Notes under the pieces: model-generated | What the model saw: the letters and a program-made list of their open reading frames with translations, nothing else | Databases searched by the model: none | What the model was told of the DNA's origin: nothing | Program-made: the position numbers and the translations under genes | Assembly (NCBI RefSeq): GCF_026151205.1 | Contig: NC_087083.1 | Coordinates: 5,620,460 to 5,684,459, forward strand | Reading direction: 5' to 3' | DNA: 64,000 nt | From: Bolinopsis microptera | Lineage: Eukaryota > Ctenophora > Tentaculata > Lobata > Bolinopsidae | Part shown: piece by piece, positions 15,201-63,880 of the stretch | Layout: every line of letters begins with the position of its first letter | How positions within the stretch are numbered: position 1 is the stretch's first letter

Positions 15201-17395
15201 CCCCAAAAATTTCCGAGCCCCAACTACGCGAAAAACCATTTAGGTTTTTTAAACCAATTTGGGCACCCCGCTTTCCCATCATAAAATTTCCCAAACAGCT
15301 ATAACTAAACGAGATTATTCCGTTCAAAGCCCCATATTTTCACACAAAATAGAAAATAATGTGATTTTATTGCTGACAAAATATGAAAATAATTACTCAA
15401 ATTTCCCTTTTGGGAAGTAATAGATTTGAAAAATTTTTAAAAACGCGATTGTTAGCATTTGGACTAATGGGGCCAAATTTAACTTCTTAACAAATTCGAT
15501 CCTTAGAACATCATACTAGGGTGTCCAAAAAGCGGTTGGGTTTCCTAAACGCGTAGCAGAAAACACGGTCTTTTTTGCCCGAATAAGGCCCTCTACAAGG
15601 AAATTGGGGGACCCCTAATAATTTTCCGTCTGATCATGATAAACCCCAAAGGGAAAAAATTTGGATTTTCAAAATTTTTAACAGAATTTCCTTAAAAAAA
15701 ATAAAATTTAAAATAAACACGAAACAAAAAGTTTTTTTAAAAATTCCAACCCCGGGGCAGGGGAGCAAACCAACCTTAATTTACCTAATGGGGGAAATTA
15801 AAAATTAGGTTTAATTAACAAGGCACAAAAGGATATAAATTTCAAAAATTTAAAGAAACACTAAAACCCCATAAAAAATTAAGACCCCAAATTTAGACAT
15901 TAAAAACAAAAATTGGGTCTTTTCAAAAATAAATTAAATTACAGTTTTTTCCCTTTCAAAAAACCTATTTTCAAATTTTTGGGAAACCCAAATTTAACCA
16001 AATTTGGGTGTGATCATATTAAAATTTTTTAAACTTTCCCAAAAAAAAATCGGCTTAAAAAAAAAGATGTGCGAAAATGAATTTGACGGTTCTATCGAAT
16101 TTAAATTTTGTTAATAAAGCCCAAAATGATGATAAAATTTTTGAAAATTTAAATTCTTTAAACAAACTTGCCCTTTAAACCCGGGGGATGCTCCCCCGGC
16201 CTATTTTAACACTTGACAATGCCTTTAAAAAATTAAGTTTAAATTTGCTTTTGGTGTTTTCATTTTACAATAACTGCCCCTGTTTTCCGCACAGACAAAG
16301 CCCCCCCCTTTTTTATCTGGCAAATTTTAACTGTTGACTTTAAAATCCCTAATTCGGCCCTGCACAAGGGATCAGCAGCTTCAACAAGAAATGATAGCCA
16401 AAATAACAGCAAAAAACACAATTCATACGTTGAGAGAAAAACCTAGAACACTGATTCAGATTTGGTACATTCTGGGGCGCGCGGCGCCCGGGAGTTTTAA
16501 GAAAACGGGGAAACCCGCCGCGCGTTTAAAAACCCCCCCGGAAATCTTACCCGCTCTAATTTTCCCCGAAACAAATTTCCTAAGCCCCACTTTGACCACG
16601 AAAAAGTCACGTTTTTAAAAGCCCTAAAAACCCGGGAAAAAACCCCCATCCTGCTTTAAAAGGCCCAACCACCACCTTTTTAATGGAAATCTTTGTTCGT
16701 TTCCGACCATCTAAAATTGTTAAATTTTTTTTAACGGGCCGAAAAAAGGAAAGGTTTATACTTTAAGAAAATTTTAAATACCAAAGCAAAATGTTTTAAC
16801 AATAAATTTTAATTACAAACATCGCAGGAATGTGACAATTCAATTCAAATCAGAGCTAAAAAAATTTTAAAAATGAAATTTATTTAACCAATAAATTTTT
16901 GTCAAAAGGGTTGTATCCCCGCCGCGCACAAATTTGCGCGGCTCCCCCGGGTTACGTCCGAAGTGAAGGGGCCCAGTGGGGGCACCGCGTGATACAAAAA
17001 TCAATGCAGTCAGGTAGTTTTGTTGTAAAAATTTCTTTGGGGAAATTTTTTCGAGTTCGGGGGATCTGGGAATTGGGAAATAAACCCCTGGGTTGTTTTT
17101 ACCCTGGATTTTTAAAAATTTTAAAAATTCAACAGGCTTTTTGGAAAATTAAAAACAACCACGAAAAAAAAAAAAACCCCTTTATTTAAACTCAAATTTT
17201 TGACCTTCAACGTAAAACAGGGAATTTCACAGGGCCCCCAAAGCTAACCACCCCCGGGGAAGTATCAGCCTACCCCCTCTCTGTTTTCCCTTTAACATGT
17301 GATACCCCGTAAAATTTTTGGGTTTCAAATATTAGACCATCAAACGGTCCAAACCTTGGCGCCGCCCTTGGGTAGGCCCATAAACCTACAATGTA

Positions 17396-17440
17396 CAGGG
17401 TGGGCCAAAAGCCCCAATACCCATACTTTTGGCCTTTATA
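17396..17440 (+). repeat. Degraded copy of the CAGGGTGGGCCAAAAG transposon end
   Basis: CAGGGTGGGCCAAAAG followed by CCCATAC and TTGGCCTTTATA matches the sequence at 63314-63357 apart from small changes and base-run errors. It shows that the homopolymer block is built on host-type DNA. Confidence 0.7.
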
Positions 17441-23582: not shown

Positions 23583-23735
23583 TTTTATACCACGTGAAGT
23601 GGGGATAAACCGTGTGACGGAAAATGACGGGATGTCATGTGGTATGACGTCATAACACGTGACACGACGTCAAACCACGTGATATGACGGCATACTATGT
23701 GGCAAACCTTTAGAAAACATGTGATATGACGTTAT
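23583..23735 (+). repeat. Degenerate CRE/E-box array
   Basis: Alternating words such as CCACGTGA, TATGACGTCATA and ACACGTGACACGACGTCA at about 20-25 bp spacing, the same design as the better-kept array at 25.3 kb. Confidence 0.6.
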
Positions 23736-24551
23736 CAAAATAGTGAGTGGGGATGCAATGACAATTTTTTAAAGCTCTCGTTTCTCACCAGAGTGAATTA
23801 CATCAATTTCTCACCAAACATTTCAACACTAAGCTATGCAGTATGTAAGGTAGTCTATGAGTCTATCAGGCAAGCATTTCTGATATCGGGAATCGGGATA
23901 TGTGTCATGGAATGTGTCAAGAGCAGGTAGATTCCTGGCATATCATCGCCAATACTTATAAAAAATGTCCTAATTTGTGTCACTGGAAAGCTGTGCCCTT
24001 TATCTCAGTCACAGAAACACAAGGGCTGTGGGGAAGCGTAGTTTACACATTGTTTACACAAAACTGAATTGATTTCAGGATCTTAGTTTGACACGGTCAA
24101 TCTTTATACGTCTAGTCAATAACCAATTTATTTGTCCAATGTTCAGTGCAGTTCATTATATATTATAATATTATGATATATAGCATAATATATATATTAT
24201 GTTATATACATATTTTTTGTAAATGGTCGTTAGAAACACCGGCACCGTCCGGGTCAACAACAACAATCGAAAGAGCTTGGTTGAGATTAAGTTGATTATG
24301 CAAATTAATGTACACGAGGATATGCGGTATCAACGAAATAGAAAAACTATGAACAGTTATTTAAATTCTAATAATTTGAAATTTCAGATATTACAATATA
24401 TTTTGCCTCAATTTATGTATGTTTATTTTACTTCATTTCAGGTTAGTGATCTGAGAACGATTAAAATACAGCAGCCAAAAGCTTCACCTCTAAAGAATCT
24501 CAAGATTTTAGAACTCCACGCACATCTCAAAATGTTTACTTTTTCTAAGGC

Positions 24552-24735
24552 AAAAAATAGCATCATGTGCTGTATTATAGCTCTGGTAGCATTATGTGCT
24601 ATATCATAGCTCTGGAAGGCGGAAGCATCATGTGCTATATTATAGCTCTGGTAGCATCATGTGCTATATTATAGCTCTGGTAGCATCATGTGCTATAATA
24701 TAGCTTTGGTATCATCATGTGATCTGGTAGCACGA
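24552..24735 (+). repeat. 29-bp minisatellite, 5-6 copies
   Basis: Unit core ATCATGTGCTATATTATAG followed by CTCTGGTAGC. The third unit carries an extra GAAGGCG, the last ones are degenerate. Confidence 0.9.
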
Positions 24736-25327
24736 GCTAACGGACGGTAAAATATGTGTCGTTAACGACAGTCAAGGAACGTGTACTAAAAGGTGTGATA
24801 GTAGGTGAAGCCAGCTTAGGTATGTGAGACTTGACGCCCGGTCTAAATTACTTAACGAAGAAAAAACCTGACGAAAAATGTGTGAGCTCCAACGGGTAAA
24901 CATTGTAATGTGGGTGATACAGTACCTGTGTTGTTGGTGCTAAATGACGTCATGTACCAAGTCACACTACTAGAAACGCCGTAAAATCACGTAACATGTT
25001 ATTATGTATTAAACAACAGTAGTGCGAGTGTCAGTTTATTTCAGACATGTTCAAAATCTCAAAATATGTCAATGAGGGTTTGTGCCAGTCAGACTTTGAA
25101 TTCCAGACTTTGTTTCCGGGATTTCCCTTCCACAGTAGTATATGTATACAAATTTAAAAAGAGTTTCTTGACAAATTTAAATTTGAATACCATTTAAACT
25201 GGTCCATTTTGTGAAGTTTCACTGAGAAGTTGTGAAACATAATGTATGTACTATATAGGTAATGTGCGGGTAATTGTGAAAAGATGCGAGAAAAGTAGAA
25301 CTGTGAATGCAGCGTAACAGTGAACAA

Positions 25328-25585
25328 AATACAACGTGACATGACGTCACACCAACCCGGTTGGGGACCCTATTATTTTTTGAACGGTATTCCACTCCTC
25401 GTGACATGACGTCAAACCACGTGACATGAAGTCACGCCACGTACACGACGTACGTACGTGGAACATGACGTCTACCTCGTGACATGAGGTTCCACTACGT
25501 GACATGGCGTCACACCACGTGACAAGACGTCACACACGTGACATAGACGTCACTCCACGTGACATGACGTAACACTAAGTGAATT
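25328..25585 (+). repeat. 20-bp CACGTG/TGACGTCA tandem array
   Basis: About a dozen units of CACGTGACATGACGTCACAC with point changes. Each unit joins an E-box palindrome (CACGTG) and a CRE palindrome (TGACGTCA). Further partial units lie at 25850-25890 and 26158-26210. Confidence 0.85.
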
Positions 25586-26927
25586 TATATATATATATAT
25601 TATATACAGCTGAACAGTAAACAGTAAACAGTAAACATACTGCAATATTATAGAAAAGTGAGTACGCCAGTCCTGTTGATACATTTTATTTTGAACTGCT
25701 TGACGATGTCTGTTCTTAAATTACTATTAGTATATTATATATTACAATTACACTTGTATGTTTTATAAAGCATAACGGCAATTAATACTTTCCTTACACT
25801 TCAATTGTTAATTAACGTCAATACACGTTGTATGATTTCATACCACGTGTTGTGACGTCACAACACGTGGTATGACGTCATGTCACGTGTTTAATAAAGA
25901 ATTATGGTAATTACTATTAGCCTCATACTAATCATTAATTGTACAGTAAACGAATAAGGACATAATAACGATTATATTGTTGGCGCCAAACAGCTGTGAG
26001 TGCGTTTGAATGCGGCTTAGTTTATATTTTTATTCAACATCAAACATAAATATTAAATATAATTTTGTGATCGATAATATACATTTATGAAGCCGGTTAC
26101 TACACTGCAATTCGCTGGTTAGCCTAGTTATATACAGGAACGAACATGAGTCTCAACGACGTGATGTGACGTCACACCACGTGATGTGACGTCACACAAC
26201 GTGTGATACGACATTACAAAAAGACATTATAATGAAATACTAATACTAATACCAATGATTAACCAGATATGAACTGCCTGTTAAGCTGTTACACCATTGG
26301 ATGACCTTATCTAAAACTTAACGTATAACCTAGGTCATAAGATGATTGATAACTTAACTGATAACTTATCTCTTAACTTACTAACTAATTAGCTTAATTA
26401 CACCATTATGTACCGCTGAAACTCCTTCGAAGGTTATTTCTATTGCCGTCCCCATCGGTATCTGCTATCAATATAGTCTTGTCAACTATCTGTTGTAGCT
26501 GAACGTCCTTTAGGTTCGTACCCACCATCATCTTTAACACCTGGAATATGAATGACTATAACAAATAATTCTCTAATTAACTAGTTGACTAATTGACTTT
26601 AAACGACTACCAAAATGAGAGTTAATTTGCCAAAATTATACACTGAGAATTGAGATCCTTTTTTGTGAAAAAATTAACTAAAATTCGGGTTATGGGAAAC
26701 CTTATTTTAATTTCTATTTCTTTAAAATTTCATGTTTATTCTGATTTTCTGATAAGTAGAGCTGATAAAATCAGCTACCTCATTTAGAGTGCATGCGATG
26801 TGATCCTCATCATTAGGGTCATTAACATGTAACCTGATTTCATGGCGTTCATTGGAAAAACTTGCGATGTGATCTACACGAAGGTGTCCGATAACCATGG
26901 TGTCAGGGATCAGGGGGGGGGGGGGGG

Positions 26928-28901: not shown

Positions 28902-31900
28902 GTAAGCTTCCTTGAGGACACTGCCTAGAGTCAAATATCAAATCGATAAGGAGCACACCCCTCCCCCCTACAGAAGGAATCCCCAACAAAATTTGCTATA
29001 AAGCCAAAGTAAATAAGAAACTGGGTGCCATGCCAGTTCGCCGGTTTGTTCCGTCAATTATCCATACTTACATGGAACATTACTGCAATTATTGTTCTGT
29101 GCTAGCTTGAACAATGAACATGGGAGTACATTTTCAATAGCCAACCAGAGAACTGCATTTTGGTCACCTGGCGTGCCAATCAAAGATCTCGAATGGCAAA
29201 TACTGTACATTATAATTATATGTATAGTATATTGTATAATGTACGATATGCTTCTAATTCTCGTCACACAGTTATATTGGTGCTTATAATATTGTTGATT
29301 AACAGTGTACATATTTTACAAGTTACTAATCTAAAACGGCTACATACGGCTACATACGGCTACATACGGCTACATACCACTACATACCAATACATACTAC
29401 TACATACGGCTACATACCAATACATACCAATACATACCAATACATAAGTTACTACACTACACAAAGTTCATGTTATCGGATAAAGTGAAAATATTATGTT
29501 CCGGAGAAGCTAAATCCGGACCAGATTATATATTATATTCCAGAGAAGCTAAATCGGACCAGATATATTCAGAAGAAGCTAAATCAGGACCAGATATATT
29601 CCGGAGAAGCTAAATCCGGACGAGAAAAATAGGGATATCATTTGGTAGCGCACATGATACATTTACGTGGTTTAGTTAGGATATGATTTCCGGATCATTA
29701 TGATTTCTTTTACGAGAATATTTATTTGTTTACAGTCAATTAAGCCGGTCTGGCTGGCTAATCAATTGTAACCAATCAGTGAGCTGTATTCTAGTCACGT
29801 GACACAAACTAACCAATCAGAGAGCTGTATACTTATCATGTGACACATACAATAAGATCCAGGAAGATTGAACAACTCTTATTAAAGATATGATCCAAAA
29901 TATACGTGTGTCACAGTACACTAAATTGATGTACAATGTACAATGTACATTAAAAATAAATGTGTACAAACATTTAATGTGACTGTTATAGTGTAATACT
30001 TTCTTCAAGTTGGTTCAGACAATAAATAGCAATCACATTTTGATTGCTATTTATTGTCTGAACCGACGTTAAGAAATTATTTCAGTCATCTGACCGAAAC
30101 TAACCAATCAGAGAGCTGTATTCGAATCACATAACCGAAACTAACCAATCAGAGAGCTGTATCTCTCTAACTGGTCCAACTGGAGACCAGCAATCTGGCT
30201 CGAATCTGTGATTACCCTAAACCGTGACGATACACTGAGTCTCATACTTATAATTCGTGGAACATTAATTGTATAATGCACACAACTGACTAGTCAGAGA
30301 GCTGTATTCCAGTCACGTGACTCTTGCTGACCAATCAGAGAGCTGTATCGTAGTGTACACGAGTAGTCACACCACCATCTTAATATTCCACACACTGGAC
30401 TGATTATACTAGCGTAGCCTATCAGACAGCTGTTATCTAGTAACGTGACACAAAACAGCCAACCAGGCGGCTGTTATCTAGTAACTTAGTAACGTGACAC
30501 AAAACAGCCAACCAGGCGGCTGTTATCTAGTAACTTAGTAACGTGACACAAAACAGCCAACCAGGCGGCTGTATTCTGGTCACGTGATGAAAACCGGCCA
30601 ATCAGAGACCTGTATTCTGATCACGTGATGAAGACCGGCCAATCAGAGACCTGTATTCTGATCACGTGATGAAAACCGGCCAATCAGAGACCTGTATTCT
30701 AGCCATATAAAGTAGCGTAGAGTACTTACTAATAAAGACTCCCAAATTATCCTGTATAATAATTTATTGTAGGACTCGTATTGTTTACAGGTAACACAGT
30801 GTACATTGTAATACCATTGAAATGGACAAATTCAGAGCAGGGCGCCATGTACTTTGTAACATAACAGAATGCAGTATGAAAGGTCACTTTGTGTCACGTG
30901 ACAATGATAGAGCTCTCTGGTTGGCTGGCATCATGTACAATACACTGTATTATTGTGTAAGAGTAACCCACCGTACAGCAGAATGTGTCCCAATGTTACA
31001 GTGAAGGAATCTTGCAAACCCACTTATATTGCCACACAGTGCTACCTGCTACAGATGGGGGCCGGGGCCGGGGCCGGGGCCGGGGGAGGGGGGGGGGGGG
31101 GGGGGGGGGACTCTTACACCTTACACCACATCTACTCACATCCAGAGGCAGAAAGTTTTAAATTTTCTCCCAGTCCAATGTTTGAAGCCTTAAATTATAT
31201 TATGCCATAAAAAAAGTCAGGCCTTTTAAAAATGTCTTACATTTCCCTCAGACAGACTGGCGTGGTTATGAAAATGGCCACATATACCTTATCTACCACA
31301 TCTACATTATATACCTTATCTACCACATCTACATTATCTACCTTATCTACCACATCTACCTTATCCTACCACATCTACCTTATCTATTTTATCTACCACA
31401 TCTACCATATCTACCTTATCTATAATCTACCTTATCTACTTTACATCGTTACACTTCACTGTGCACTACATTTCCGTGTTATAGAAACTAGCCTATCAAA
31501 CTGAGCCAAATATATTTTGGTATATTGTATAATATGGATATTGTATACTATACAACATCTCCTGGACTTCTGCCTTGGTTAAAAGATTTGTTTGAAACTG
31601 TATGGAAAGGTGAGGATATTCCTAGTGATTGTAGGAAAGGAATCATCACCATCATCCCAAAGAAAGGGGACCTCACATATTGCAACAACAACAGAGGGAT
31701 AACTCTACGCTCCACAGTATCGAAGTTATTTCAAATCGTGTTGTTAAAAAGACTAAGTAATGGGCTTGAAAAGTTACTTAGAGAAAATCAGTGTGGTTTC
31801 AGGAGAAACCGTTCTTGTATAGATCAGCTATACTCCCTTCATTGTATAATACACAATTGTATAGAATTCAACGTCCCTTTGTATATAAACTTTATTGATT

Positions 31901-34900
31901 TTAAAGCTGCTTTTGATTCAATCAATCGTGACTTTATTTGGAAAGCTTTTGAACATTATGGTCTTCCAACAAAATACATCAATGTTTTCAAAGCGTTCTT
32001 TAGAGCAACTGAAAGTGCAGTTCGTGTCAATGGGGAATTGACAAGATGGTTTGATGTCGATTCGGGGACTGGACAAGGTGATGTGCAAGGGCCCCCCATT
32101 TTCAACCTTGTACTTAACTGGGGATTAGAACTTGCCGAGAAGTTTAAAAATATATCGCGTGGTTTTACTCTTCAGTACAGACAAAGTTCCAGACAACCGG
32201 AAAAATGTGTCATTGATTTGGACTATGCTGATGACATAGCAGGCATGGATGACACTGTCGAGGGACTGCAAGAAACAACGGACAATATTGCGAAATACTG
32301 TGGGCTTGGGGGTTTAAAGATGAACGCAAAGAAAACAGAGATCATGGTAATTGGGAAAGATACGTCGCAGCACCCACTCCCAGAGAATAGGACCATAGAT
32401 ATTACTGTCGATGGAAACCCTGCAAAGCAGGTCACTCAATTCACTTATCTGGGTGCCAAAATTACATCGGATGGCAAGATCGATAAAGAAATAAGTGTCA
32501 GGATTGGAAAAGCAACCGGAGCTTTTAACCAACTCAATAACATTTGGAAGAATAAGAACATAAGCATTAACAACAAAGTGCGAATCTACATCGCAGCTGT
32601 TCTTACCATTCTGACCTATGGAAGTGAGATATGGAACACGACTCAAGTGCAGACAAGAAGATTAGAGTCTTTCCATCAGTACTGCTTACGCAGAATCCTG
32701 AAAGTGAGGTGGTTCCATCGAGTAAGAAATGAAGATGTTTTAAGAAGGGCTTCAATAACTGCTCTTACTGACATAATAGCAACAAAACGGCTACGTTGGT
32801 TTGGACATGTCAGTAGAATGCCTGAAGATCGGTTACCTAACTATCTACTTGAATGGAAACCCAAGCATGGGAAACGATCAAGAGGCAGGCCTAGGAAGAG
32901 CTTAAATGATGTATTTATTGAAGATGCTGGGCAGAGATTGGATCGTAATGGACTCACGATTGATTGTATGAGAAGATTGGCTGCAGATCGAAAAGGATGG
33001 AGAAATATTACCCGCCGAAGTTGTATAATACAAAGTAATGACGCAGTCGACGCAGACTAATCCTTTTGGATGGAGATCTCGCCATGTAACATGTAACATG
33101 TATGTATACAACATATGCGCATATATACAGTATCACATTACAGTGTAGTAGAAATAAGATGTATCAATGAAACCGAAACATCGGCTGAAATGAACTGGAC
33201 TATGAGTAGACTATATTACATTGTGTGGTAACTGGTAATTGACCATTCTGATTGGTTGGTTTGTGGCATGTGACTTAAATCAACTGTTCTGATTGGTTGG
33301 TTTGTGGCATGTGTTACACGTATTGTGACACAGAGTGTATGTTTATTGTTTAACTGATCTAGGACAGGTTCTGGAACACGTTTAACATTATTCCAGTGTA
33401 GGTAGCTGGTTGTCCAACTCAGTAACACATCTCCAGTGCAGTGTAGGTAGCTAGTTTTCGGAATCAATATTAGATAAAATTGCCTCCGTACCCTAAGGTT
33501 TTTTTTTCTGGGTGCCACAGACCCACCCAATGGTGCTGACTTTTTTGGGTTAAAGACCCACTTTTCCATTGAATGTGGCTTGCTGGCTGAGCTGCGCTCG
33601 CAGTAACAGTTCACCACCAAATTTTTTGAACTTTCCCTATCAACAATCTTAGAGATTGGACTAAATATTACATTCCATAATTTAGGACTTGAAGTTGATG
33701 ACCTTCTTCCGTCAGAATAATTATATGTACTATTCATATATGCGATATTCCACCACATTTTGGTTGATAATTTGATTTCCAATGTCCACTCATACATATG
33801 TGGAAAACTTACAAATACCCCTTAAAATACTGGCTTTATACTTATAGTATAAAGATGTAGGTATCGGTCAGGGACATAGCCAGGATTTTTATTTGAGGGG
33901 GGCTGTCGGTGAGCGAAGCGAGCCGACGCGTCCAATCCAGCTGCGCAGCGAGCCAAGCGAGTAAGCTGTGGCAGGGGTCGGGGGGCGCAGCCCCCGGAAA
34001 TTTTTTGCGAAACATGGTGTTTTAGACGACATTTGGCATTAAAGAAATTTGTAGGATAGCAATAAACTGGGATTGAAAAGAATCAAGTACTCATGTACAG
34101 GGACGTAGCCAGAATTTTTTCTTTGATGGGGGCTGTCAGCGAGCGAAGCGAGCAGATGTGTCCAATCCAGCTGCGCAGCGAGCAAAGCGAGCAATCTGTG
34201 GCAGGGGTCTGGGGGCGCAGCCCCAAGCGGGGTCCAGGGGCGGAGCCCCTTGGCGGGGTCTAGGGGGGCGCGGCCCCCGGAAAATTTTTGCGAAACAGAG
34301 GGTTTTAGACGACATTTGGCATTAAAGAAATTTGTAGGACAGCAATAAACTAGGATTGAAAAGAATCAAGTACTCACGTAAATTTGGTTACCTCACAACA
34401 GCAATCTGCATTCTCCAATCAGAATTTACGACTTACTCAGGCCTCATCGTCTTAAGATTTTTACATTTCCTACGGTCTAGGGGACACTATTGACTATTTA
34501 TAGAAGTCTTCTAGAATGTTTGCTTGGATGTTATGACAGATACTTACTAATCCACAGTTCAAATCTTTGACTGACTGCAGTCATAAACACAGCCCAGTTA
34601 CCAGGCGACCATGGGGGAGTAGACACACAGTTGATAATGTAACAGACCCACTATCAATATCAACAGACCCACTATTTCATCTTAAAGACCCACAAGTCAA
34701 TCCACAGACCCATTTCAGAGTAGCAAAGACCCACTATTAAGCGAGTAGACACACACTTAATAACAATAGGCCCACTATTTGACCTTACAGACCCACTGCC
34801 AATAACAACAGACCCACTTTGTAACCTTACAGACCCACAAATAAATCTACAGACCCATTTCAGAGTAGCAAAGGCCCACTATTAAGCGAGTAGACACACA

Positions 34901-37900
34901 CTTAATAACAACAGACCCACTATCGATATCAACAGGCCCACTATTTCATCTTACAGACCCACAAGTCAATTTACAGACCCATTTCAGAGTAGCAAAGACC
35001 CACTATTAAGCGAGTAGACATACACTTAATAACAACAGACCCACTATCAATATCAACAGGCCCACTATTTCATCTTACAGACCCACAAGTCAATCTACAG
35101 ACCCATTTCAGAGTAGCAAAGACCCACTATCAAGCGAGTAGACACACACTTAATAACAACAGACCCACTATCAATATCAACAGACCCACTATTTCATCTT
35201 ACAGACCCACAAGTCAATCTACAGACCCATTTCAGAGTAGCAAAGACCCACTATCAAGCGAGTAGACACACACTTAATAACAACAGACCCACTATCAATA
35301 TCAACAGACCCACTATTCAATCTTACAGACCCACAAGTCAATCTACAGACCCATTTCAGAGTAGCAAAGACCCACTATTAAGCGAGTAGACACACACTTA
35401 CCACTATCAATATCAACAGGCCCACTATTTCATCTTACAGACCCACAAGTCTATCTACAGACCCATTTCAGAGTAGCAAAGACCCACTATCAAGCGAGTA
35501 GACACACACTTAATAACAACAGACCCACTATCAATATCAACAGACCCACTATTCAATCTTACAGACCCACAAGTCAATCTACAGACCCATTTCAGAGTAG
35601 CAAAGACCCACTATTAAGCGAGTAGACACACACTTAATAACAACAGACCCACTATCAATATCAACAGGCCCACTATTTCATCTTAATACAGACCCACAAG
35701 TCTATCTACAGACCCATTTCAGAGTAGCAAAGACCCACTATTAAGTGAGTAGACACACACTTAATAACAACAGACCCACTATCAATATCAACAGACCCAC
35801 TATTCCACAAAGACCCACTATTAAGCGAGTAGACACACACTTAATAACAACAGACCCACTATCAATATCAACAGACCCACTATTCAACCTTATAGACCCA
35901 TGTAAGTAAGTCTACACTATTTGACCTTACAGACCCACTGCCAATAACAACAGACCCACTTTGTAACCTTACAGACCCACAAATAAATCTACAGACCCAT
36001 TTCAGAGTAGCAAATATCAACAGGCCCACTATTTCATCTTACAGACCCACAAGTCTATCTACAGACCCATTTCAGAGTAGCAAAGACCCACTATTAAGCG
36101 AGTAGACACACACTTAATAACAACAGACCCACTATCAATATCAACAGACCCACTATTCCACAAAGACCCACTATTAAGCGAGTAGACACACACTTAATAA
36201 CAACAGACCCACTATCAATATCAACAGACCCACTAAATTCCACCTTATAGACCCATGTAAGTAAGTCTACACTGTAATAAAACACATCCAAGCTATCAAC
36301 AGGCCCACTATTTGAGCATGTACAGACCCTCATTAACCATGGTCAATTCAATCCTAACCTTACTCCCCCCCCCCCCCCCCCCCCCCCCCAAGAAAATATG
36401 TTTTTTTTTTCGTTTCAGACAATTTTAATTTTTCGATGAAAAAATTTGAGGCAAGGGTGCTGGCACCCTTGGCACCCTTTAAAAAAAAACCTTACCGTAC
36501 CCTGATTTATCATCATAATCTTGAACTTTCTGCCCCTTAAAAAATCCATCATCATATCTGGAGGAAGATACAAAACTTGATTTTATTTAATTATGTATTT
36601 ATATAACCAAACTATTTATTTTTTCTATAACCAAACTATTTATTATTTATATAACCAAACTATTTATTATTTAAATAACCAAACTATCAGGACTGGAGAC
36701 GCTACACGGTTTATACAGTAGTTCACACAGCACACATGTAAGAGCTATAGCTCTTTACGTTTTGGGGAGTCTATACCTTGATGGGTCAGTGATTTCAAAT
36801 TTAATTAAATAATCAATATTGATATTATTTATTGTTTGTTTTTATCTATCAGGGAATTCCCCAGAGAGAACGGGAATCCTGGTTATGTGTACAACAATAG
36901 CTATTTATTAATTTCAGGAGGTGACCGGGATTGGCAATTTTGAGCTATCCCGGTCCCGGTCCCGGTCCCGGTCAAATGCTGATTTATTTATTTATGGTCC
37001 CGGTCCCGGTTAATTCGGGATTCTTGGTCCCGGTCCCGGTCCCGGTCCCGGTCAATCACTCAAATTTGCTGGGATTTTGACCGGGATCTTTTACATAATT
37101 TCATTCACTGTGATTTTAAGTTTTTCCTTTTATTCATTGTGAATTTCATCTTTAAACATACTCTGAGCCAAATACAACAATGTTTAAAATTGCTAAACAA
37201 GTTTGAGTAATATTATTATTATCAAATCTAAAATAGCTAATAATTTATTAAATTATTAACAGGCCCCTTAACGTGGGCAATAATATACGCTTTTTAAATT
37301 ATATAAACAAATTGAAGTCTATTTTTCCAATGTTGTTAAGTGTCTCTTTAGATCTGTTTTGGTCTTTTCGTGGGAGTTCCCACATTTGTTGGTTGAGAAT
37401 GCTCAACATAACATACATGATGCTTGACTGCTTTATTGACCCGGACAGGCACCGGGGGCAGACATCCCAACACCAGTGCGTTGGGACATAGTGTTGGTCT
37501 GCTTCAGGACGTGTTAGATCCTAGAGAAGCCGCCATCCCCTCTACTGCTTTAGCTCAGCGGCAGCATGAGCCCTGGTTTCCTGCCACATTGGTACCTCTG
37601 AAAGTACAGAAAAGTGGTGGATTTCGGGGTCCAGGATACTCCCTCTTTGTTCTTTATGGTGGTAATATTTCTCTGAGATGTTTGCAGAGTCTTTGAGTAA
37701 TAAATTATGATCATGAATTAACCAGTAATCGACCGGAATTCCCGGTACCGGGAATCCCGGTACCGGGATTGGCAATTTTGAGCTATCCCGGTCCCGGTCC
37801 CGGTCAAGTCACATTTTTCATCCCGGTCCTGGTCCCGGTCCCGGTAAATTGATAATCTCTTTGAATCTCAGTCCCGGTCCCGGTCAAGTCACATTTTGTA

Positions 37901-40900
37901 TCCCGGTCCCGGTCCCAGTCCCGGTCAGGCCTGAAATCATGTCCCGGTCACCTCCTGATTAATTTATTTGTACACCACTTGTTGGTCCACATTTTGGGAC
38001 CTAAAGTTTTTATTCCTTTGCCTATTTTTATTTTTTCATAATGCTCAAAAGGCCATAAAAGCATTCGACTGAGCTGGAAAAGTTTCACAGTTATGATATC
38101 TCTCGCGATTTTCGCGGATAGTCTTGTAAAAGTTAATTTCTTGGTGTCAGCAAAATGGCAACAGTAAACAGATATATATTTAATATACATAATATAATAT
38201 AATTATATATATCGTCGATAGCTTTATAATATAATATAGTCAGATAATTACCATTGAATTAATTAACAAATTTTTTAACCCGAATATTCAGGTATTTAAT
38301 AACGTCCTTAACCCTACATCAGTAGGGAGTACCGGTGGGTGATGAATAATTGAGAATCCAACAGGATCTTGTTCTCTTCATTGTGCTGATTCCGGGAAGC
38401 ATTCGTTTTACGCTCTAGTTGAAGCTGATGTAGTACATCAGCTTCAACTCTTCAAGACACAAAATATATAATATACGTTCGAAGCTACCCAATGCTACAT
38501 TTAACTACGTGTCTAAACCCATAATACCAACATTTTAGTAATTGAGCAATAGCAATAGGGCGTGAGTATCTCCATCAACCTAATCACACTCAATATTACA
38601 CCTAATCACACACCTAATCACACATATTCACACCTAACATTACAGCTAATCACGCGTCATAATCTCCTATAATCACTCACAATCACGCCCTAAATTACAG
38701 CTAATATCACACTAGACATTGTTACAGGTTTGACGACAGGAGCCGTGCTGCTAAGTGTTTACAATTGGCAGACACTTTACTACAGACACAAGGGCGACAC
38801 TACAGTCGTTACTGACTGTCTGTATTCGGTCACTGTAGGTCAGTAATGGGGGGGGGGGGGGGGGGGGGGGTGAAACGGGGTTCAAATGGTGAAAAGTGCA
38901 AGTGGTGAATGATTTTTATCCAAATTGTAACGATTTTATCAAAATAAAACCCCCATATTTTAGGATCAAGAAAATTCCGATCCCCAGAATTATGTGTAAC
39001 ATAAATATGTCTCCACACTTACTCTTAAGCTCTTATGAGTATACTGAGGCAGGGCTAATTTTGGAATAAAAATCCGAAATTCAACGGTTATTAATTTGTC
39101 TGGGATTTTCTGGTTGGCGATTTTTTTACTGTGACTTCTTCTAAAGATAACAGTAATTCCAGTACTTTCTAGTATTAATACTATTAGCATCAGTATCTGA
39201 CAGCTACTGTCTCTGGTCGGCACGTGACACAGATTAGCCTATAAGAGAGCTGCAAAAATCGGAGTGCTTTCTACTTTTATCCACAACTACAATATCGTAG
39301 ATATTGTGGTAATTTTACTGATAATTTCTGAGACTGTGCCAATTCAGAATATTATATAATAACACGTGAACACGTGAACATAAGCGCTTTAGCGGCAGAA
39401 AATCATGTGACTGTGGCTTTACACGATTTCCACAAAACGAAAATAAATCAAGCATAAGGTGCTGGCAGTGGCTAGACGTTACGGTTTTAAAATATATTTT
39501 AAACACAAATATATTCTAATACTTACTTTAATTATATAAAATATACGGTACAAATGAATAATATTCTTTTTCTTCACAAACCATCTGACCGAGATAGAAT
39601 AGAATCGAGTAGATAAGAATTCGTACAATCACACAACACCCATCTGAATATGTGATAAAAGCACCGTAACGCTGTCACAAGACCATGATAGTGCTGTGGC
39701 TTACCACACGACCATCATACTTACATGATACTGTATAATTACTAGTTACTACTATATCACGTATACAAGTTACAGTGCATATTACGTGTATTATTATCAT
39801 TATCATTATACTGTATTATCTATACTGATAATCTCACGATGTGTGTTTGTCTGTTCGCGTGTAATTTCCAAACGGCTTAATCAAGAAAACGGTAAGAGTT
39901 ACGGGGCTGGTTTTTTCGGTATAGTGCGGACAAAACTCTGCCCAAATCAAATGATTAAGGATTTTTAAATCGGCCGCGCCGGTGGTAGGTGGTTTAATTG
40001 ATCATTTTGTGACCCAAATGTGATACAAAAGCGTCTCACGTACTCTCTCTCTCTCCCACTCCCGCTCTCTCTCCCCCCACAACAGATTTGCGATATAATC
40101 TTATAATTATGTAATTTGGCAGTGGACTTCAAGATTGGCTATCAAATATTACTATAAGATATATATGAGGGGCACTCAGAATTAAATTGCGGTGTGTTTG
40201 GACAGAGCGAGTTCATAATTTCGAACCGTTCTTACTACTGAAAATGTAATGTTTTCTAATATAAAAGGCGGGTTTTTACTTTTGCATTTCAACTGCGATA
40301 GCGTAGGCACGGGTTACACTAGTACTAACATATAATACTATAGTTTCGGTAACACGACTCCTGTCCGACAGCGACATCTGTCCGAAAGCGACATCTGTCC
40401 GAATCAGGGTACCAGAAAAAAACGACATCTGTCCGAAATTGTGACCTGATTTCAATACGACACATTTCCAATTAGAGACATGATCTAAACTGTTACTTGC
40501 TAAATTGTATACGTAACATGTCCAATTTGAGATATGATCTGAGCCATAGTTTACTACGACAGTTTATTTTAATTTGATGTCGATAAATTGGACTATAGTT
40601 TCAATTATAATGTACCAATATAATGAATATACATGACAATTGACAACCATACCAAGTAGTAGAGAGATAATTAAGAGTTAACACTTGACTGTATTATCAG
40701 GTGTGATGCATAATGTGTGATAAGTTTGTGTGATAGTGTGATATGTATAATACGTGTGAAAGGTACTTTTCAATGTACTGCCTCAGATTCAGATTCCAAA
40801 CAGTGTAATATTCAATCAAAATTTAAAGCACTTGAAAGAAACCTTCTAGATTGGTCAATTCAAGTCATGTGACACAAACCAACCAATCGGAATGGTTTAT

Positions 40901-43900
40901 TTAAGTCACGTGACACAAACCAACCAATCGGAATGGTTTATTTAAGTCATGTGACACAAACCAACCAACTACAGGTCCGCTATGTCAGAAAGTAAAGTAT
41001 TGTCTGGACAGACTTACTAATCTATCAGATAACCTATCAGGTAAGAACACTAGAACAGTAAATAATCACATTAGTCACAACTGGTGTTCTTAGAGGGAAT
41101 TTCTGCACAGTTAGAATCGATAGAAAATAACATTTATGGTGTCAATGTAATATGAATCATTGCTTGATTACTATATAATAATTCGAATTAACTATTACTC
41201 TCCCACATAATCAATTAATCAACTAATTACTTAACCAATCAATGAACTACAGGTAAGCTAGAAGTGGGGGAAGGGTTTGATAACTGGAACATGGAGGAGC
41301 AGAGCACTACAGTAACTGTAGAGGATCTGGAGGAGACAGCTGGAGGGGGCCTGGCTCAGACTCTGAGTAGAGGTCAGTACCACGTGGTGTATCATGTCAC
41401 GTGGTGTGATATGTCACGTGGTGTGTATAATGTCACGTGGTGTATCATGTCACGTGGTGTGATATGTCACGTGGTGTGATATGTCACGTGGTGTGTGATA
41501 TGTCACGTGGTGTGATATGTAACGTGGTGTGTGTCTTGTGTCACGTGGTGTATAATGTTACGTGGTTTGTATTACGTCATGACAATGTTGACTATGAAGA
41601 AGATGTAACCAAGCTATTCTGTAGTGCCTCAGAAAATGATATTTCTGATCCTCGAACAATTCTACAAATTTTAGCGAACAAAACTCCTCCAAACTCTAAT
41701 AACATTGCAAGAGGTCCACTCTTACATTCCAATAATCCAGAATCCAGACCCCACCACCAGTCCAATAATCATACCGCTTCATAAATATAGGCCCGGCTCA
41801 TCAAATAGCCAAATTGCGTTCCCTCCTTGAATAAACCATCATGACTCGGAATGGAATTAAAATCACATTTATTCAGAATGACAAATTATGGTGATTATCT
41901 AATCTCATAGCCACCACTAAGTGATCCTACACTCGCTTACAAGAGATTACAGTGTTCTGTTAGAGAACAGCTTAAGTAGATGTACCATTACTGAGCTTAT
42001 CACGTGACACAAACTAGCCAATCAGGGAGCTTTATTCTTGTCACGTGACACAAACTAGCCAATCAGGGAGCTTTATTCTTGTCACGTGACACAAACTAGC
42101 AAATCAGGGAGCTTTAGTCTTATCTACGTGACACAAACTAGCCAATCAGGGAGCTTTATTCTTGTCACGTGACACAAACTAGCCAATCAGGGAGCCTTAT
42201 TCTTGTCACGTGACACAAACTAGCCAATCATAAAGCTATATTCTTATCACGTGGCACAAAGTAGCCAATCAGGGAGTTTTATTTTTGTAACGTGGCACAA
42301 AATAGCTAACCAGAGAACATTTGCGCAAACTTTGAATCAAGTTAACTACTATGATTTAGCTATCTGGATTCTGACACATCTGAACTACAGCTCTCTGAAT
42401 CATTCATTAGAATCACGTGACTAAATACAGCTCTATGATTGGCTGCTATTAACAGGGTTGGAGTACACGAAGAGTGGGGAACACAAAGCGGCAACGCACG
42501 TGTATCTAGCTAAACTATCAGATTTACAGCAGTGTAACGTTATTTTAACTAGATATGATATCCTACATCTGCTCCTTCTCATCTCCAGGTAAACTCTAGT
42601 TTATAAACTAAACTTTAATATAATATATAATATAAATATTAAAGTTTTTATCATTTCTTACTTTCACAGTCAGGGGTGCACGCCGGTCCACTTTGCGTCA
42701 ACTGGCGGCGTATAATAGTAATGCTGCACCGGCGCAGAACGGCAGCGTGAAACTAGACTGAGTCCAGTATTTAGCAGATAAAATATGTGATAAATTTCTA
42801 TACTATATATTTATGATGGGCAATTCTCTAAATTTGATAATTCAATTTTGGAGATGTACATACGTGCACTAGTGATCTGGCAATTAAGAATTCAAATTGA
42901 AAATTTCGAAATTTGCACGCAGCGTGTAAACATTTATCGGTGTGGCGGCGTATGACAGTGGCTATGTTGTGTCACGTGACAAGAATGAAGCTGTCTTATT
43001 GGCTAGTGTGTGTCACGTGATGTATTTCAGGTGTTACAGGAGCTTATTCCAGTACTCTCTCTCAACACAGTTTCTAGAGAAAGCACTGTCTGTCTTACAG
43101 TCAGATGTGTCGCTATACAGTTACGATATTGTGGTAGCAAACACTTCACTTTCACAAAGGTGGGTCACGAGGTACGTGAGTTTGGGTCACGTGGTACGTG
43201 AGTTTGGGTCACGTGGTACGTGAGTTTGGGTCACGTGGTACGTGAGTTCGGGTCATCTGATTTCATGCTATGTAGCGCGTTACATTAAGCTTGACTGATC
43301 AAGGAGCACAAAAAGTAGCCTCTCTGTGTGGTAACTCCAAATCCACTATTACATTATTACAGTATTAGATTATACGGGAGTAGATCAGAGTAAAGGGAGG
43401 TCCAGATGATGCAATCAACCTCATCAGCTCGTTAACAAGGTCCACCATATGTATATTAAATATGTGTAATATGTACATGTGCAATGTGCATCTTTATAGT
43501 GTGTTTATGTGATTAAAAGTCCTTTTGGCTCAACTCACATTTCCATTTCTTAGTGAGATTGGAAAGTAATGCTGTTTCTCACCATGGATACAATAAGCTT
43601 CAACAATATGTCTTAAACGTTTTATATGGGTGGTACGTAAATGGTTTTATTAATTTGAAAATATATGTACCTTAAACGTCATATTGTGTGTGTGGTGTTT
43701 TTCTTTATTTAATATTATGGGTACCACACTACCAACTTAAACATATTGTGTGTTGTAACTGGTTTATTTATTCAATAATATACTTTAAACATATTATACT
43801 ATGTTGTAAATGGTTTTATTTATTCAATAATATACTGTAAACATATTATAATATTATATGATGTAAATAGTTTTATTTATTCAATAATATACCGCAAACA

Positions 43901-46900
43901 TATTATATTATGTTGTAAATGGTTTTATTTCCTCGATAATATAATGCCGTAAACATATTAAATAATATGTTTTACTCATTGGCTCAGTACGGACAGGAGA
44001 ATCACTCTTACATATTTTTGCAAATGTGAGATGGAAATTCGACGGATGTGGACGGAATGGGCGTTTATTGATTTATTGGATTATATTGGATTCTAATTTA
44101 TCGTTAACAGATCAGGATCTAACACATAATCATAAAATATATCTTATTATCAAAATTATATATAATTTCATGGCGATCATTAGTGGACATAATGACCGGT
44201 GCAGCATGGAATGCACATATTAAACTAGAAATTATCGAAATAACGTCATCATCTCTCTAATTTATCCATAATGAATGGGATCAACCTATTTAAATATTTT
44301 CATCACATTTTTTCTGGGAATTTTTGGTAGACGACCACGAATTCCATGGCCCAAGATGCATTCTTATTTCCGTTGTTTTGTGCACTTCAATTTTAATGAA
44401 ATTCACGACTTGCAAAGAAACCAAATAAAAATTCAAAACAATCACGAATATCGCAAACACACACTATCCCACAGCTACCATAAAGAGATAGAACATACGA
44501 AGCAGAAGATACAGACACGTATTAGTGACGTTATAAAGACACAGCTAAGAGAAGTGGGGCAGCGCGCAGCTGCACGTGTGGATGTTTATCTTGACAGTGA
44601 AAGGTAGGGTATAGCTGCACGTGTGGATGTTGAAGTATAAACTTAGCGGGGGGGGGGGGGGGTGTGGTATTTATAGCGGCCCAAATCTTAAATTTTTTAA
44701 ACATAAGTATAGTGGAATAGTCCAAAATCCACCATATTTGGACTATGGTTGCGTATCAATATTATTATACACCTAAGGTTCATTAACTCCTCAACTTGAA
44801 CAATTAGTGTACCTCAGGTATATAATAATAATAAAAAGTATGTTTATATTTGTATTCAATGCTTCAGGGGTATTGTTCCATTTGCAGTCACATTAGATTT
44901 AAGTGTCTTGCAATTATCCCTACCCTAAGAAACCCCCAACATTTAAGGTTAAATCAGTGCTTTCAATAACAATTCATGTCGCTACTCGCTTAAACAGAGA
45001 CTTTTTGCCGACAAAATAACACCTCTGATTGGCTTATAGGAACACGTGACTAAAACACAGCCCTCTGATTGGCTTATAGGAACACGTGACTAAAACACAG
45101 CCCTCTGATTGGCTTATAGGAACACGTGACTAAAACACAGCCCTCTGATTGGCTTATAGGAACACGTGACTTAAAAACAGCCCTCTGATTGACTTATAGG
45201 AACACATGACTAAAACACAGCCCTCTGATTGGCTTATAGGAACACGTGACTAAAACACAGCCCTCTGATTGGCTTATAGGAACACGTGACTAAAAAACAA
45301 CCCTCTGATAGGAACACATGACTAAAAAACAAGTTTGTGTAAACGTGTAAAACCCCACACTGTCTCACATGTAATATCTTAATGTATTATTTGTAACCAA
45401 ACTGAGCTGTTACTCAAATTGGGAAGCAATTATCTAATTATATAATTATCAAGATGTACTGGGTGGCAGTTTTATGGTTTTAGTTCAACAGGCCGGTGTG
45501 GTGTTTACTGTATCTAGTTTTTGAGCTGGCTTCTCATTCTCATACATGATTTTTTTAAAACAAGGGACGTTCACATAATATTGAGTAAGTCGGCCTAGGA
45601 GAAGTTATTAACAATAGTGTAATTTTAAACAATAATTTGTGCAAAGTAGCTTACGGAGGAGGTTCTAAAATCGCCAAAATCTGAAAATCTGGCTTTCTTA
45701 ATTTTACTGTATTAATACAGTAAAACCTCCATATTCCGTGTATCTCTATACCGTGCCTCCTTTCTACAAACTTTAAGTTAATTAAGTTGTTTTGTGCAAG
45801 AAATTTACATTATCATATCTATTTTCATTTCCCCCGAGAGGCCCGGTATAGAGATTTCTCTGTACAATTTGAACAATCCCCAAGTCATATAATGCGACCT
45901 TCAGATTGTTAATTGTGTTATTATACACAAATATTATTTACTAGACGCGGATTTAATCTGATTTAAAACACTACACTAATGCCTAATACCATGATATTTA
46001 ACTAAAATTTGAATAATTCGCTGATAATAATGTAATAATAACGTAGTAATATTATTTAATGTTCAGGTTAACTAGAACCGGCGAGATTATGGGTTGCTGG
46101 GAGAGAATACAGGCTAGCCTTACCCTCGCAGAATCATTTATAGGTGAGTAATTTGTAAGTGAATCTCTAGAAAAACCCCAAACCTTATTAATATTCAGGA
46201 AACTATGTCTGGCACTTTGTGGCCATGATCAAATAAACTTCCCATTAACAGATAGACTGAGTCTACGTGATGCAGAGAACGAATTGAAGGTAGTATCCGA
46301 CCTCCTCATAGACCTTCCACACCAGTTCAACCACATATCAACATCAATATCAACATCAGTATCAACATCAGTATCAACATCTATCAACCCTCAATATAGA
46401 GATCAAGTTGAGAAAACCACAGTTAAACTCAACTCGGAGTTTCAACTACGGGCAAGCTATGAAACTGCTGTGGAACTGATGGAAGAGGCCGAGGGTTTAA
46501 ACAACCATCAGGTTAATAATTAATATAGATACTTGTAATAGATACTTGTAATAGATACTTGTAATATATACTTGTAATAGATATTTCAAGCACCTCTCGT
46601 TTCAAAGAGACCACGAACAATGAACGCTTCGACGAAAATCTGAAAATTTTAAGTAGGGAATAGAACAGAACACCGACCTGAAAATCAACCAGTTAGCTAC
46701 CGGATATCATGATAACATCTTATCATGTCCCACTTTAAGGCTAACGTGAAGAAGAGAATGAAGAAATCCTCAGCAAACGTAAGATCACGTGATATGACAA
46801 TAAGGTCACGTGATAGGGTGATAAGATCACGTGATGAGATGATAAGAAGTCTGGAGAGAGTGGAGGTTGCCCTGACGGGAATAGTTAGAAATAGCAGGAG

Positions 46901-60568: not shown

Positions 60569-60606
60569 ATATCGAAGTTGATGCAATTTCTTTGGTTTGG
60601 AGGAAA

Positions 60607-63313: not shown

Positions 63314-63880
63314 CAGGGTGGGCCAAAAGTCAGTACCCATACGTTGGCCTTAATAGCTCCGCCGTGTTTTATATTTGAGAGCTGTTGCTCTGCAGATGGC
63401 ATACTGTACTTACTGGTTCGAGGATTCCGTCGTCAAAATTTGAAAATTCGAATATTTTAGACCACGCCCATTCAATATTAAAACACCTATATTGTTTTCT
63501 CTGAACATGCTGAACGCCTAATTTTTTCAGAGACGGTAGATTATCAAATGTTGCATATGATCTGAAAACATGAGGCAAAACGGATTAGAAATGACGAAGT
63601 TATCAACCATTTTCTGTATCTCGTTAACAATATTGACTGGGTGATTATGTGACACCGTGACACGACACCTTAATTGGGCACCCTTAACAATTCCCATAAT
63701 GTTTAACGGGGTAGTTAACGGGGGCACCTTATCACGTGATTAGGTAAACCAATCACCTGATCACATGTTATGAATAAACTCGTTATGCTTCATATCTCGG
63801 TCATCTGAGAAGCTACAGTTCTAATTCTTTCAGGACAAACGTAACTCGAATGGCCAAACACAATTCAATAACATTTAGCT
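63314..63880 (+). repeat. Dispersed repeat with CAGGGTGGGCCAAAAGT end (mariner-like, non-autonomous)
   Basis: Begins TATACAGGGTGGGCCAAAAG after an AT repeat. It shares ordered blocks with 56.24-56.55 kb and its first 45 bp with 17396-17440. No transposase ORF. Assignment to a mariner-like family rests only on the end sequence. Confidence 0.6.

Follow-up and report, generated by a model that had tools for sequence, protein, structure and literature searches.

E-box and CCAAT words at preferred distances in single copies and minisatellites of a ctenophore genome, a candidate USF/NF-Y composite element

A 41-bp unit that recurs in the genome of the ctenophore Bolinopsis microptera is, as judged from DNA sequence, probably a USF/NF-Y composite element, polymerised through tandem duplication and in part retained for its function. 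A palindromic E-box (TCACGTGA, USF type) and a CCAAT box (NF-Y type) would be combined at two preferred distances, about 17 bp from E-box to CCAAT and about 24 bp from CCAAT to E-box. Such composites are scattered through the genome as single copies unrelated to one another, and have also grown into minisatellites via tandem duplication. A USF-type dimer and NF-Y would bind side by side and cooperatively, each stabilising the other. The arrays may then serve as dense platforms with a regulatory output, enhancer-like or promoter-like, in which the words are kept by selection and the linkers drift.

The window, that is, the whole stretch of 64,000 nucleotides analysed here, contains CACGTG 65 times, compared with an expected 5 (first-order) or 8.7 (second-order). 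The exact pattern CACGTGAC-N8-14-CCAATCAG occurs five times and is absent from 100 shuffles. These counts, together with the reversed-word controls, reject plain chance as the source of the word pairs. Distances in the window are taken from first base to first base, with at most one mismatch per word. From E-box to CCAAT, 20 pairs are spaced by 17 bp and 8 by 16 bp, 7 of the latter lying in the 45-kb array and 1 at 63733; from CCAAT to E-box, 25 pairs are spaced by 24 bp. A sequence-only reading of this DNA had described a 41-bp unit that recurs in both orientations, in which CACGTG and CCAATCAG keep a fixed spacing. This is confirmed for the 40/41-bp copies (Table 1), the order and spacing of the two words are kept as it had stated, and inversion is likewise confirmed for the copies at 33235-33310, 42410-42440, 42970-43020 and 45 kb. 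Its array steps of 40 and 41 bp are recovered by Tandem Repeats Finder, but those of 47 and 56 bp are not; the step at 30438-30572 is 49 bp. The copy that it placed at 39220 exists in degenerate form, without the CCAAT box, since CCTAT stands there. Degenerate words occur in several window copies. The location of the unit within one gene was not borne out; a reverse-transcriptase frame lies at 31492-33060. As tandem copies of 10-100 bp (Tandem Repeats Finder), the arrays are minisatellites by definition.

The window copies form a single related family, recognised by common linkers. Consequently, they cannot be counted as independent. Pairwise differences between window arrays are 0.10 for words and 0.39 and 0.52 for linkers (10 copies), a comparison that is biased because the words were used to pick the copies, and that is not leaned on here.

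Table 1. Copies of the unit and other E-box arrays, in window coordinates
Feature	Position	Strand	Method
Single diverged copy, CCAACC...TCACCTG, 24 bp	29141..29174	+	distance scan
41-bp array, ~1.9 copies, 17 + 24 bp geometry	29769..29847	+	Tandem Repeats Finder, distance scan
Two CCAATCAGAGAGCTGTAT copies, 41 bp apart, degenerate E-box	30104..30165	+	read from sequence
Copy with exact CACGTGAC-N9-CCAATCAG at 30314-30338	30290..30350	+	exact pattern match
49-bp array (30438-30572), degenerate words AACGTG, CCAAC, 17 + 32 bp	30415..30572	+	Tandem Repeats Finder, distance scan
41-bp array, 3.2 copies, E-box TCACGTGAT	30569..30700	+	Tandem Repeats Finder, distance scan
Single inverted copy, CCAAC to E 24 bp	30895..30925	-	distance scan
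Inverted array, E-box CACATG	33235..33310	-	distance scan
Single degenerate copy, CCTAT in place of CCAAT	39220..39252	+	
41-bp array, 2.7 copies, E-box CATGTG/CACGTG	40858..40968	+	Tandem Repeats Finder, distance scan
41-bp array, 7.7 copies, three exact 25-base-core matches	41996..42313	+	Tandem Repeats Finder, core scan
Single inverted copy, CCAAT to E 23 bp	42413..42442	-	distance scan
Inverted copy, E-boxes flanking CCAATAAG at 24 and 17 bp, E-E 41 bp	42970..43020	-	distance scan
Inverted 40-bp array, 7.2 copies, 16 + 24 bp geometry	45022..45309	-	Tandem Repeats Finder, distance scan
TCACGTGATTAGGTAAACCAATCA, one copy of separate dispersed family, 16 bp	63733..63757	+	distance scan, genome scan
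Other minisatellites (25400-25575, 25815-25891), E-box CACGTG alternating with CRE GACGTC ~10 bp apart	25400..25891	.	Tandem Repeats Finder
17-bp E-box minisatellite without CCAAT	41381..41572	+	Tandem Repeats Finder
22-bp E-box minisatellite without CCAAT	43161..43255	+	Tandem Repeats Finder
21-bp E-box minisatellite TCACGTGA	46780..46847	+	Tandem Repeats Finder
33-bp array, TCACGTGA + CCAAT, 16 + 17 bp, breaks 24-bp rule	48092..48185	+	consensus distances, Tandem Repeats Finder

The unit is not confined to the window, since its 25-base core matches 969 places in the genome with at most three mismatches, window included (reversed control, 0). The pattern TCACGTGA-N0-30-CCAATCA occurs 1956 times genome-wide (1024+932), compared with 38 (13+25) for reversed words, and the opposite order, CCAAT then E-box, 696 times (352+344), compared with 38 (15+23). 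Among 100 matches listed for E-box to CCAAT there are 73 distinct linkers, with a distance of 17 bp in 43 and 18 bp in 14. The last two bases of these 43 distinct 17-bp linkers, among the matches listed, are mostly purines; the NF-Y consensus is RRCCAAT. For CCAAT to E-box, the distance is 24 bp in 45 and 23 bp in 19 of the 100 matches listed, and after the listed matches are collapsed, 54 of the 86 clusters with unrelated linkers stand at 23-24 bp, where a uniform spread would give 5.5. Linkers of the gap-16 clusters in this order agree at 4.72 of 16 bases, compared with 4.02 from composition. The sequence-only reading had held that linkers as conserved as the words would speak for an ordinary satellite; at the genome places listed this is not the case, many linkers there being unrelated.

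The array periods fit sums of the observed distances (17+24=41, 16+24=40). For both distances to hold throughout a tandem array, its step has to be 40-41 bp, which accounts for the period. The sum rule is broken by the arrays at 48092 (16+17) and 30438 (17+32) and by C1:843932, a 41-bp E-box array without CCAAT. At 22 loci chosen only by E-to-CCAAT, with the upstream side left free, a direct upstream CCAAT within 90 bp stands at -24 in four loci and at -53, -67 and -70 in one locus each. A second E-box is found at +41 in L022 and L026, whose linkers differ; further second E-boxes within 60 bp, at -46, +36, +45 and +49, count against a 41-bp rule.

The main rival explanation, a birth bias at factor-bound sites, is considered unlikely. 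Factor-bound palindromes in germ-line open chromatin would attract double-strand breaks, and repair would yield tandem copies. The arrays would then be hotspot by-products that need no function of their own, and CRE, CCAAT and E-box words would be shared between arrays because their factors mark hotspots. Such a bias is favoured by the distribution of the palindromes: with 5214 close pairs genome-wide (reversed word, 405), the E-box octamer occupies many minisatellites that are unlike in other respects, and so does the CRE palindrome, with 3931 (reversed word, 539), compared with 34 close pairs at 4 loci for the neutral palindrome CTACGTAG. M26 belongs to the CRE-type sites, and the yeast NF-Y is Php. 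According to the available text of PMC11352267, M26 (Atf1-Pcr1) and CCAAT (Php2-Php3-Php5) are recombination hotspot sites in fission yeast, where CRE-type and CCAAT words likewise mark special genome places; however, those are known recombination sites, whereas the places described here are known from sequence alone.

Birth bias accounts neither for the 17/24-bp rule among single copies whose linkers are unrelated nor for the better preservation of the core after birth. Inside arrays, changes amount to 15/731 in the E-box core and 126/2288 in linkers, and the core is lower in 14 of 16 arrays. The effect is weaker in arrays of at least four copies (11/599 vs 70/1836, Fisher p 0.018), where the core is lower in 7 of 9 (sign p 0.18). 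In the CRE array L095, which was found via exact CRE pairs, 6/6 GACGTC are intact and linkers differ by 45%. The suggestion that both words might be spared relative to linkers holds for the E-box core but fails for CCAAT, which inside arrays changes no less often than linkers do (13/197 vs 142/2392). For a functional composite, the arrays would be kept by selection and not by birth bias.

It is quite improbable that the unit is an ordinary satellite or transposon family, spread by copying with the words as hitch-hikers. For the window's own family, such copying is a possible spreading route. The linkers common to the window copies and the 969 core matches speak for this explanation. Other families with both words look plainly dispersed, namely TCACGTGATTAGGTAAACCAATCA and L014/L020, the latter with ~100 bp in common beginning at their composite, and 32 of 43 nine-base linkers among the matches listed chain into one loose similarity group. 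The explanation is nevertheless wrong for the many composites with unrelated linkers, and the octamer common to unlike arrays also speaks against it. No common flanks were detected at 60 bp and 1e-8 among the array loci at C1:6.27 Mb, C1:12.03 Mb and the window; L004 and L006 have the array alone in common, and at these thresholds no alignment of either with the window is obtained. Ends or flanks alike beyond the unit, as in a SINE or MITE, are absent at the three loci compared, and a transposon common to the 41-bp arrays is rejected. The regulatory interpretation offered by the earlier reading gains strong sequence support, and its alternative of a mobile element finds no support for the 41-bp unit. 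An architectural role, in which arrays anchor chromatin loops or nucleosome-free boundaries via bHLH/bZIP/NF-Y without direct effect on transcription, is very hard to credit: ctenophore loops link promoters to mainly intronic enhancers with a motif at anchors, and one composite here is intronic (L016, in a Sec23/24 gene), but the loop motif, described as GC-rich and containing two CpG, is a target of the C2H2 proteins CTEP1/2 and not an E-box (available text of PMC12221973).

The factors that would bind a USF/NF-Y composite are encoded by the host, with two USF-type genes (L075 and L078, for which USF1 and USF2 are the sole solved relatives at E 1e-6) and three NF-YA-type genes (PF02045). In human cells, regions co-bound by USF1/NF-YB mostly carry CCAAT 17 or 18 bp downstream of the E-box (Ronzio 2020, PMC7046753, available text), and a USF2-NFYA motif spacing of 9 bp is given in the accessible portion of PMC5223348, along with 21 bp at HoxB7 and 10 bp at HoxB4. 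The comb jelly resembles these cases in having CCAAT 3' of the E-box, with RRCCAAT in fixed order at 17-18 bp (17 most often, then 18; distinct linkers, among the matches listed), in its N9 gap, and in encoding both factor families. It differs in a sharp second geometry, CCAAT to E-box at 23-24 bp, of which the available text of PMC7046753 and PMC5223348 makes no mention, and in that its elements are polymerised and were not found at the gene starts sampled. One study, as far as its available text goes, reports near mutual exclusion of the USF and NF-Y groups in human promoters (PMC6238301), which counts against the composite.

Taken with the human data, these results suggest that an old gene-control rule may here have been copied into repeat arrays, one of its spacings being close to that reported in human cells. 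To our knowledge, there are few known cases of a fixed spacing rule between two transcription factors that has persisted over deep time. Should the 17-bp USF/NF-Y rule hold in the ctenophore too, it would be among the oldest animal regulatory grammar, and easily tested. It is a real though tentative possibility that the composite is stereospecific and ancestral to ctenophores and all other animals, that ctenophore minisatellite birth at E-box, CRE and CCAAT words is a general enhancer-building route, and that many minisatellites form a regulatory layer with a 17/24/41-bp grammar and are not junk. The arrays pose a second testable question, namely whether factor-bound palindromes give rise to minisatellites and these to enhancers. 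Ctenophore genomes and chromatin maps can address both the age of the rule and the origin of the arrays.

Other known elements are only partly similar. The CLEAR element, GTCACGTGAC, is bound by TFEB/MITF and clustered at lysosomal genes; the identical palindromic decamer is present here, and we know of no fixed CCAAT partner of CLEAR. The ER-stress element ERSE, CCAAT-N9-CCACG, likewise joins CCAAT to a CACG-type partner at a fixed gap. Identity with ERSE is rejected: CCAAT to CACGTG peaks at 24 bp, gap 19 (18-19 bases between), and N9 here belongs to the opposite order, E-box then CCAAT. Human VNTR enhancers, in the literature excerpts available, are similar in that tandem repeats multiply factor sites; unlike them, one octamer (E-box or CRE) is here common to many unlike arrays, and the E/CCAAT array period fits two spacing rules. 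No published account of these arrays was found in titles and abstract openings, with partial coverage, on ctenophore minisatellites or promoter motifs and sponge minisatellites.

Regarding genomic placement, one NF-YA gene carries E-18-CCAAT-24-E-17-CCAAT-23-CCAAT, with differing linkers, ~3.1 kb 5' of its exon; no composite was found upstream of the other two NF-YA genes or of both USF genes. A role of the E-box as a general promoter element is rejected, since TCACGTGA is absent from 20 Ras-domain starts (0 in 46 kb, ~4 expected from an 80-kb sample). Upstream of 24 Ras starts (55 kb) there are no composites, a weak test, as the sample rate predicts only ~2. CCAATCA is concentrated at the 20 Ras-domain starts, where 10 of 15 fall within 500 bp. 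Of 30 frames located near composites, few could be assigned to a named gene by Pfam. A sponge origin of the DNA is rejected, since the ionotropic glutamate receptor L049 has the Mnemiopsis ML032222a protein as its best match; for another receptor, L047, no chain of that name is among the 60 best matches, and taken alone it would have been misleading.

The repeat unit proposed in the sequence-only reading, in which an E-box (CACGTG) and a CCAAT box stand at a fixed spacing, is real and present in the window. Read from CCAAT, the unit is CCAATCAGAGAGCTGTATTCTAGTCACGTGACACAAACTAA, with variation, and its geometry comprises 17 bp from the E-box to CCAAT and 24 bp from CCAAT to the next E-box, summing to 41 bp. 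All distances in this analysis are measured from first base to first base. Further arrays are collected in the table; alternation of the E-box CACGTG with the CRE word GACGTC, at a distance of about one helical turn, is also observed at G000:C1:930257-934239. The window contains 65 copies of CACGTG, compared with 5 expected under a first-order model and 8.7 under a second-order model. The background sample, consisting of eight 10-kb stretches elsewhere picked at round coordinates, contains 24 copies (9.4 expected) and seven of the E-box octamer TCACGTGA (0.9 expected). Consequently, the window is unusually rich in CACGTG.

Arrays in the window and NF-YA-type genes in the genome
Feature	Location	Spacing or structure
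40-bp array	window 45022-45309	16 + 24 = 40
49-bp array, words degenerate	window 30438-30572	17 + 32 = 49; outside 24-bp rule
33-bp array	window 48092-48185	16 + 17 = 33; outside 24-bp rule
17-bp minisatellite, CACGTG without CCAAT	window 41381	
22-bp minisatellite, CACGTG without CCAAT	window 43161	
21-bp minisatellite, CACGTG without CCAAT	window 46780	
20-bp arrays without CCAAT	window 23646-26203	CACGTG/GACGTC alternating ~10 bp apart
NF-YA-type gene	G000:C7:5786332	one frame
NF-YA-type gene	G000:C11:8466648	two exons
NF-YA-type gene	G000:C4:10257949	two exons

A genome-wide search for copies, suggested in the same reading, revealed that the two words pair throughout the genome (264,652,675 bases, 232 contigs) with strict spacing. 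The pattern TCACGTGAC-N8-16-CCAATCAG has 258 exact matches, and the reversed words have none. Listed matches come from the first contigs of the genome only. Among the 100 listed for this pattern, the gap is nine bases (17 bp) in 43 of 73 distinct linkers and ten bases (18 bp) in 14. The 14 ten-base linkers listed are all mutually unrelated; 32 of the 43 nine-base linkers chain by similarity into one loose group and, judged by that resemblance, may share a common ancestry. Two loci, L014 and L020, have in common about 100 bp starting at the composite of both words, and some single composites are therefore dispersed copies. A wider scan in the same order (N0-30) gave 1956 matches versus 38 for reversed words. 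Many of those listed fall in dispersed families, such as TCACGTGATTAGGTAAACCAATCA, and the 52 distinct strings among 100 listed matches form 34 clusters, including 26 at 15-23 bp, one shorter (7) and seven longer.

The opposite order obeys a second distance. CCAATCA-N0-30-TCACGTGA has 696 matches in the genome versus 38 for reversed words, and among the 100 listed the distance is 24 bp in 45, 23 bp in 19, and 25 bp in 8. After grouping of these 100, 54 of 86 unrelated-linker clusters lie at 23-24 bp, compared with 5.5 under a uniform distribution of distances (binomial p 3e-42 if the clusters are independent). Among the gap-16 clusters, linker agreement is 4.72 of 16 bases, compared with 4.02 expected from composition. 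The sharp distance and the near-composition agreement thus indicate that the words and their distance are common, while the intervening bases mostly are not. Taken as sequence patterns, these results give good support to a USF/NF-Y composite element whose two distances are fixed.

The 41-bp array period fits the two distance rules combined. In 22 loci picked solely for the E-box-to-CCAAT order, a direct CCAAT was sought within 90 bp upstream; it lies at exactly -24 in four loci, and elsewhere at -53, -67, and -70. In three loci an inverted CCAAT is found at -16 or -17, mirroring the 17/18-bp rule, and in one locus it lies at -30. Where another E-box stands within 60 bp, its position is +41 in L022 and L026, two loci with different linkers, -46/+45 in L009, +49 in L029, and +36 in L038. 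E-boxes recur every 41 bp in the L035 array, with linkers unlike those of the window, and every 21 bp in the L031 array. The L009 array repeats every 45 bp (21 + 24), and a family at C1:151918 and C1:2790431 has 16 + 24 = 40, with CCAAT followed by G; no tandem copies of this family occur among the matches listed. A 41-bp E-box array without CCAAT at C1:843932 counts against the period rule.

Palindromes also recur in otherwise unlike minisatellites. Pairs of TCACGTGA 15-45 bases apart number 5214 in the genome, versus 405 pairs for the reversed words, and the 100 matches listed fall in about 12 loci within about 2.8 Mb of contig 1 (26,206,493 bases), with unit lengths of 18, 19, 21, 22, and 41 bp. 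By extrapolation, the genome would hold hundreds of E-box arrays. For the CRE palindrome TGACGTCA the count is 3931 pairs, versus 539 for the reversed word, with CACGTG close by in several of the loci listed; for the neutral palindrome CTACGTAG it is 34 pairs, at four loci, in the whole genome. Single sites are themselves unequal in the 80-kb sample (TGACGTCA 2 and CTACGTAG 0, against the seven octamers), so part of the contrast in pair counts reflects abundance. The composite clearly also occurs in polymerised form, within minisatellites. Alternatively, factor-bound palindromes may attract breaks whose repair makes tandem copies, so that the arrays would be by-products of hotspots; this explanation is taken seriously because fission yeast hotspot sites, in the portion of the source available, include M26 and CCAAT (PMC11352267).

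Whether the two words are spared more than the linkers, a check named in the sequence-only reading, was examined within arrays: the E-box core changes less than the linkers, and CCAAT does not. In 17 arrays, selected for CACGTG in the consensus and hence slightly biased where short, departures from the unit consensus affect 15/755 core positions and 142/2392 linker positions, with the core lower in 15 of 17. Without L012, a near-identical copy of L009, the values are 15/731 versus 126/2288, and 14 of 16 arrays show the lower rate in the core (sign test p 0.004). In arrays with at least four copies the difference is weaker, at 11/599 versus 70/1836 (Fisher p 0.018), with the core lower in 7 of 9 (sign test p 0.18). 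CCAAT inside arrays is changed at 13/197 positions, no better kept than linkers. In one CRE array, L095, found via exact CRE pairs, GACGTC is intact in 6/6 copies and linkers differ by 45%.

Upstream of 20 Ras-domain starts (46 kb), CACGTG occurs 4 times, TCACGTGA never, and CCAATCA 15 times, 10 of them within 500 bp of the start; the 80-kb sample predicts about 14 CACGTG and 4 TCACGTGA. Within this limited set, CCAAT shows the placement of a promoter box, unlike the E-box. Composites number 36 in the window, 3 in the 80-kb sample, and 0 in 24 stretches upstream of Ras-domain starts (55,223 bases), an absence that is weak since only about two were expected. One composite (L016) sits in a Sec23/24 gene, between two of its exons. 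The composite may serve as an enhancer or be tied to particular genes.

The HLH domain has 29 genome matches, of which 15 were read; at E up to 1e-6, the solved structures related to two of them, L075 and L078, are limited to USF1 and USF2. The genome has at least two USF-type genes, and NF-YA-type domains are found in three genes (table). Some 3.1 kb 5' of its matched exon, the C4 NF-YA-type gene carries the order E-18-CCAAT-24-E-17-CCAAT-23-CCAAT (G000:C4:10254840-10254926) with non-repeating linkers, a hint that NF-YA possibly regulates itself. Within about 3 kb upstream, no composite was found at the other two NF-YA-type genes or both USF genes, giving one in five. Roughly 1 kb 5' of its HLH exon, the USF-type gene at G000:C7:4445739 has five CACGTG in about 130 bp, spaced 22, 20, 22, and 67 bp.

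According to the accessible parts of the literature, most regions co-bound by USF1 and NF-YB in human K562 cells have CCAAT 17 or 18 bp downstream of the E-box (PMC7046753). This agrees with the present spacing within about 1-2 bp, given that theirs is measured between motif centres or edges and ours between first bases. A 9-bp USF2-NFYA spacing, with ChIP-qPCR on some targets, and distances of 21 bp (HoxB7) and 10 bp (HoxB4) are also quoted (PMC5223348). The 23-24-bp CCAAT-then-E-box order is seen here, and the available portions of the human USF/NF-Y reports contain no mention of it. As far as the respective excerpts extend, USF and NF-Y promoter groups are nearly exclusive in one study (PMC6238301), the E-box is enriched at start sites in the sponge Amphimedon (PMC4773876), and CTEP1/2 bind a GC-rich motif at ctenophore loop anchors (PMC12221973). 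Membership in the USF/NF-Y composite class stands as a putative assignment, based entirely on sequence features and the encoded factors, and from these we infer a regulatory function for the composite and its arrays.

Several other features were observed. At 6701-22700 of the window, homopolymer runs reach about four times their density elsewhere (per kb, 60 runs of four or more A/T and 51 of three or more C/G, versus about 15 and 12-13); this stretch, which has long, oddly composed frames and a single CACGTG, is probably an uncorrected or faulty part of the assembly. Reverse-transcriptase frames at 31492-33060 and 57743-60637 probably derive from non-LTR retrotransposons, and 34641-36235 is occupied by a large compound repeat, built of ACAGACCCACTAT-type units, with a 124-bp higher-order period. 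Ionotropic glutamate receptor genes are numerous on G000:C3, C6, C8, and C12, each in one open frame of about 430-990 codons, and some are arranged in tandem. A receptor frame, L049, matches Mnemiopsis ML032222a (E 8e-32) and the Pleurobrachia chain 4zdm (3e-22) better than it matches NMDA-receptor chains (3e-16); a piece of ML032222a reaches a best identity of 81% in this genome.
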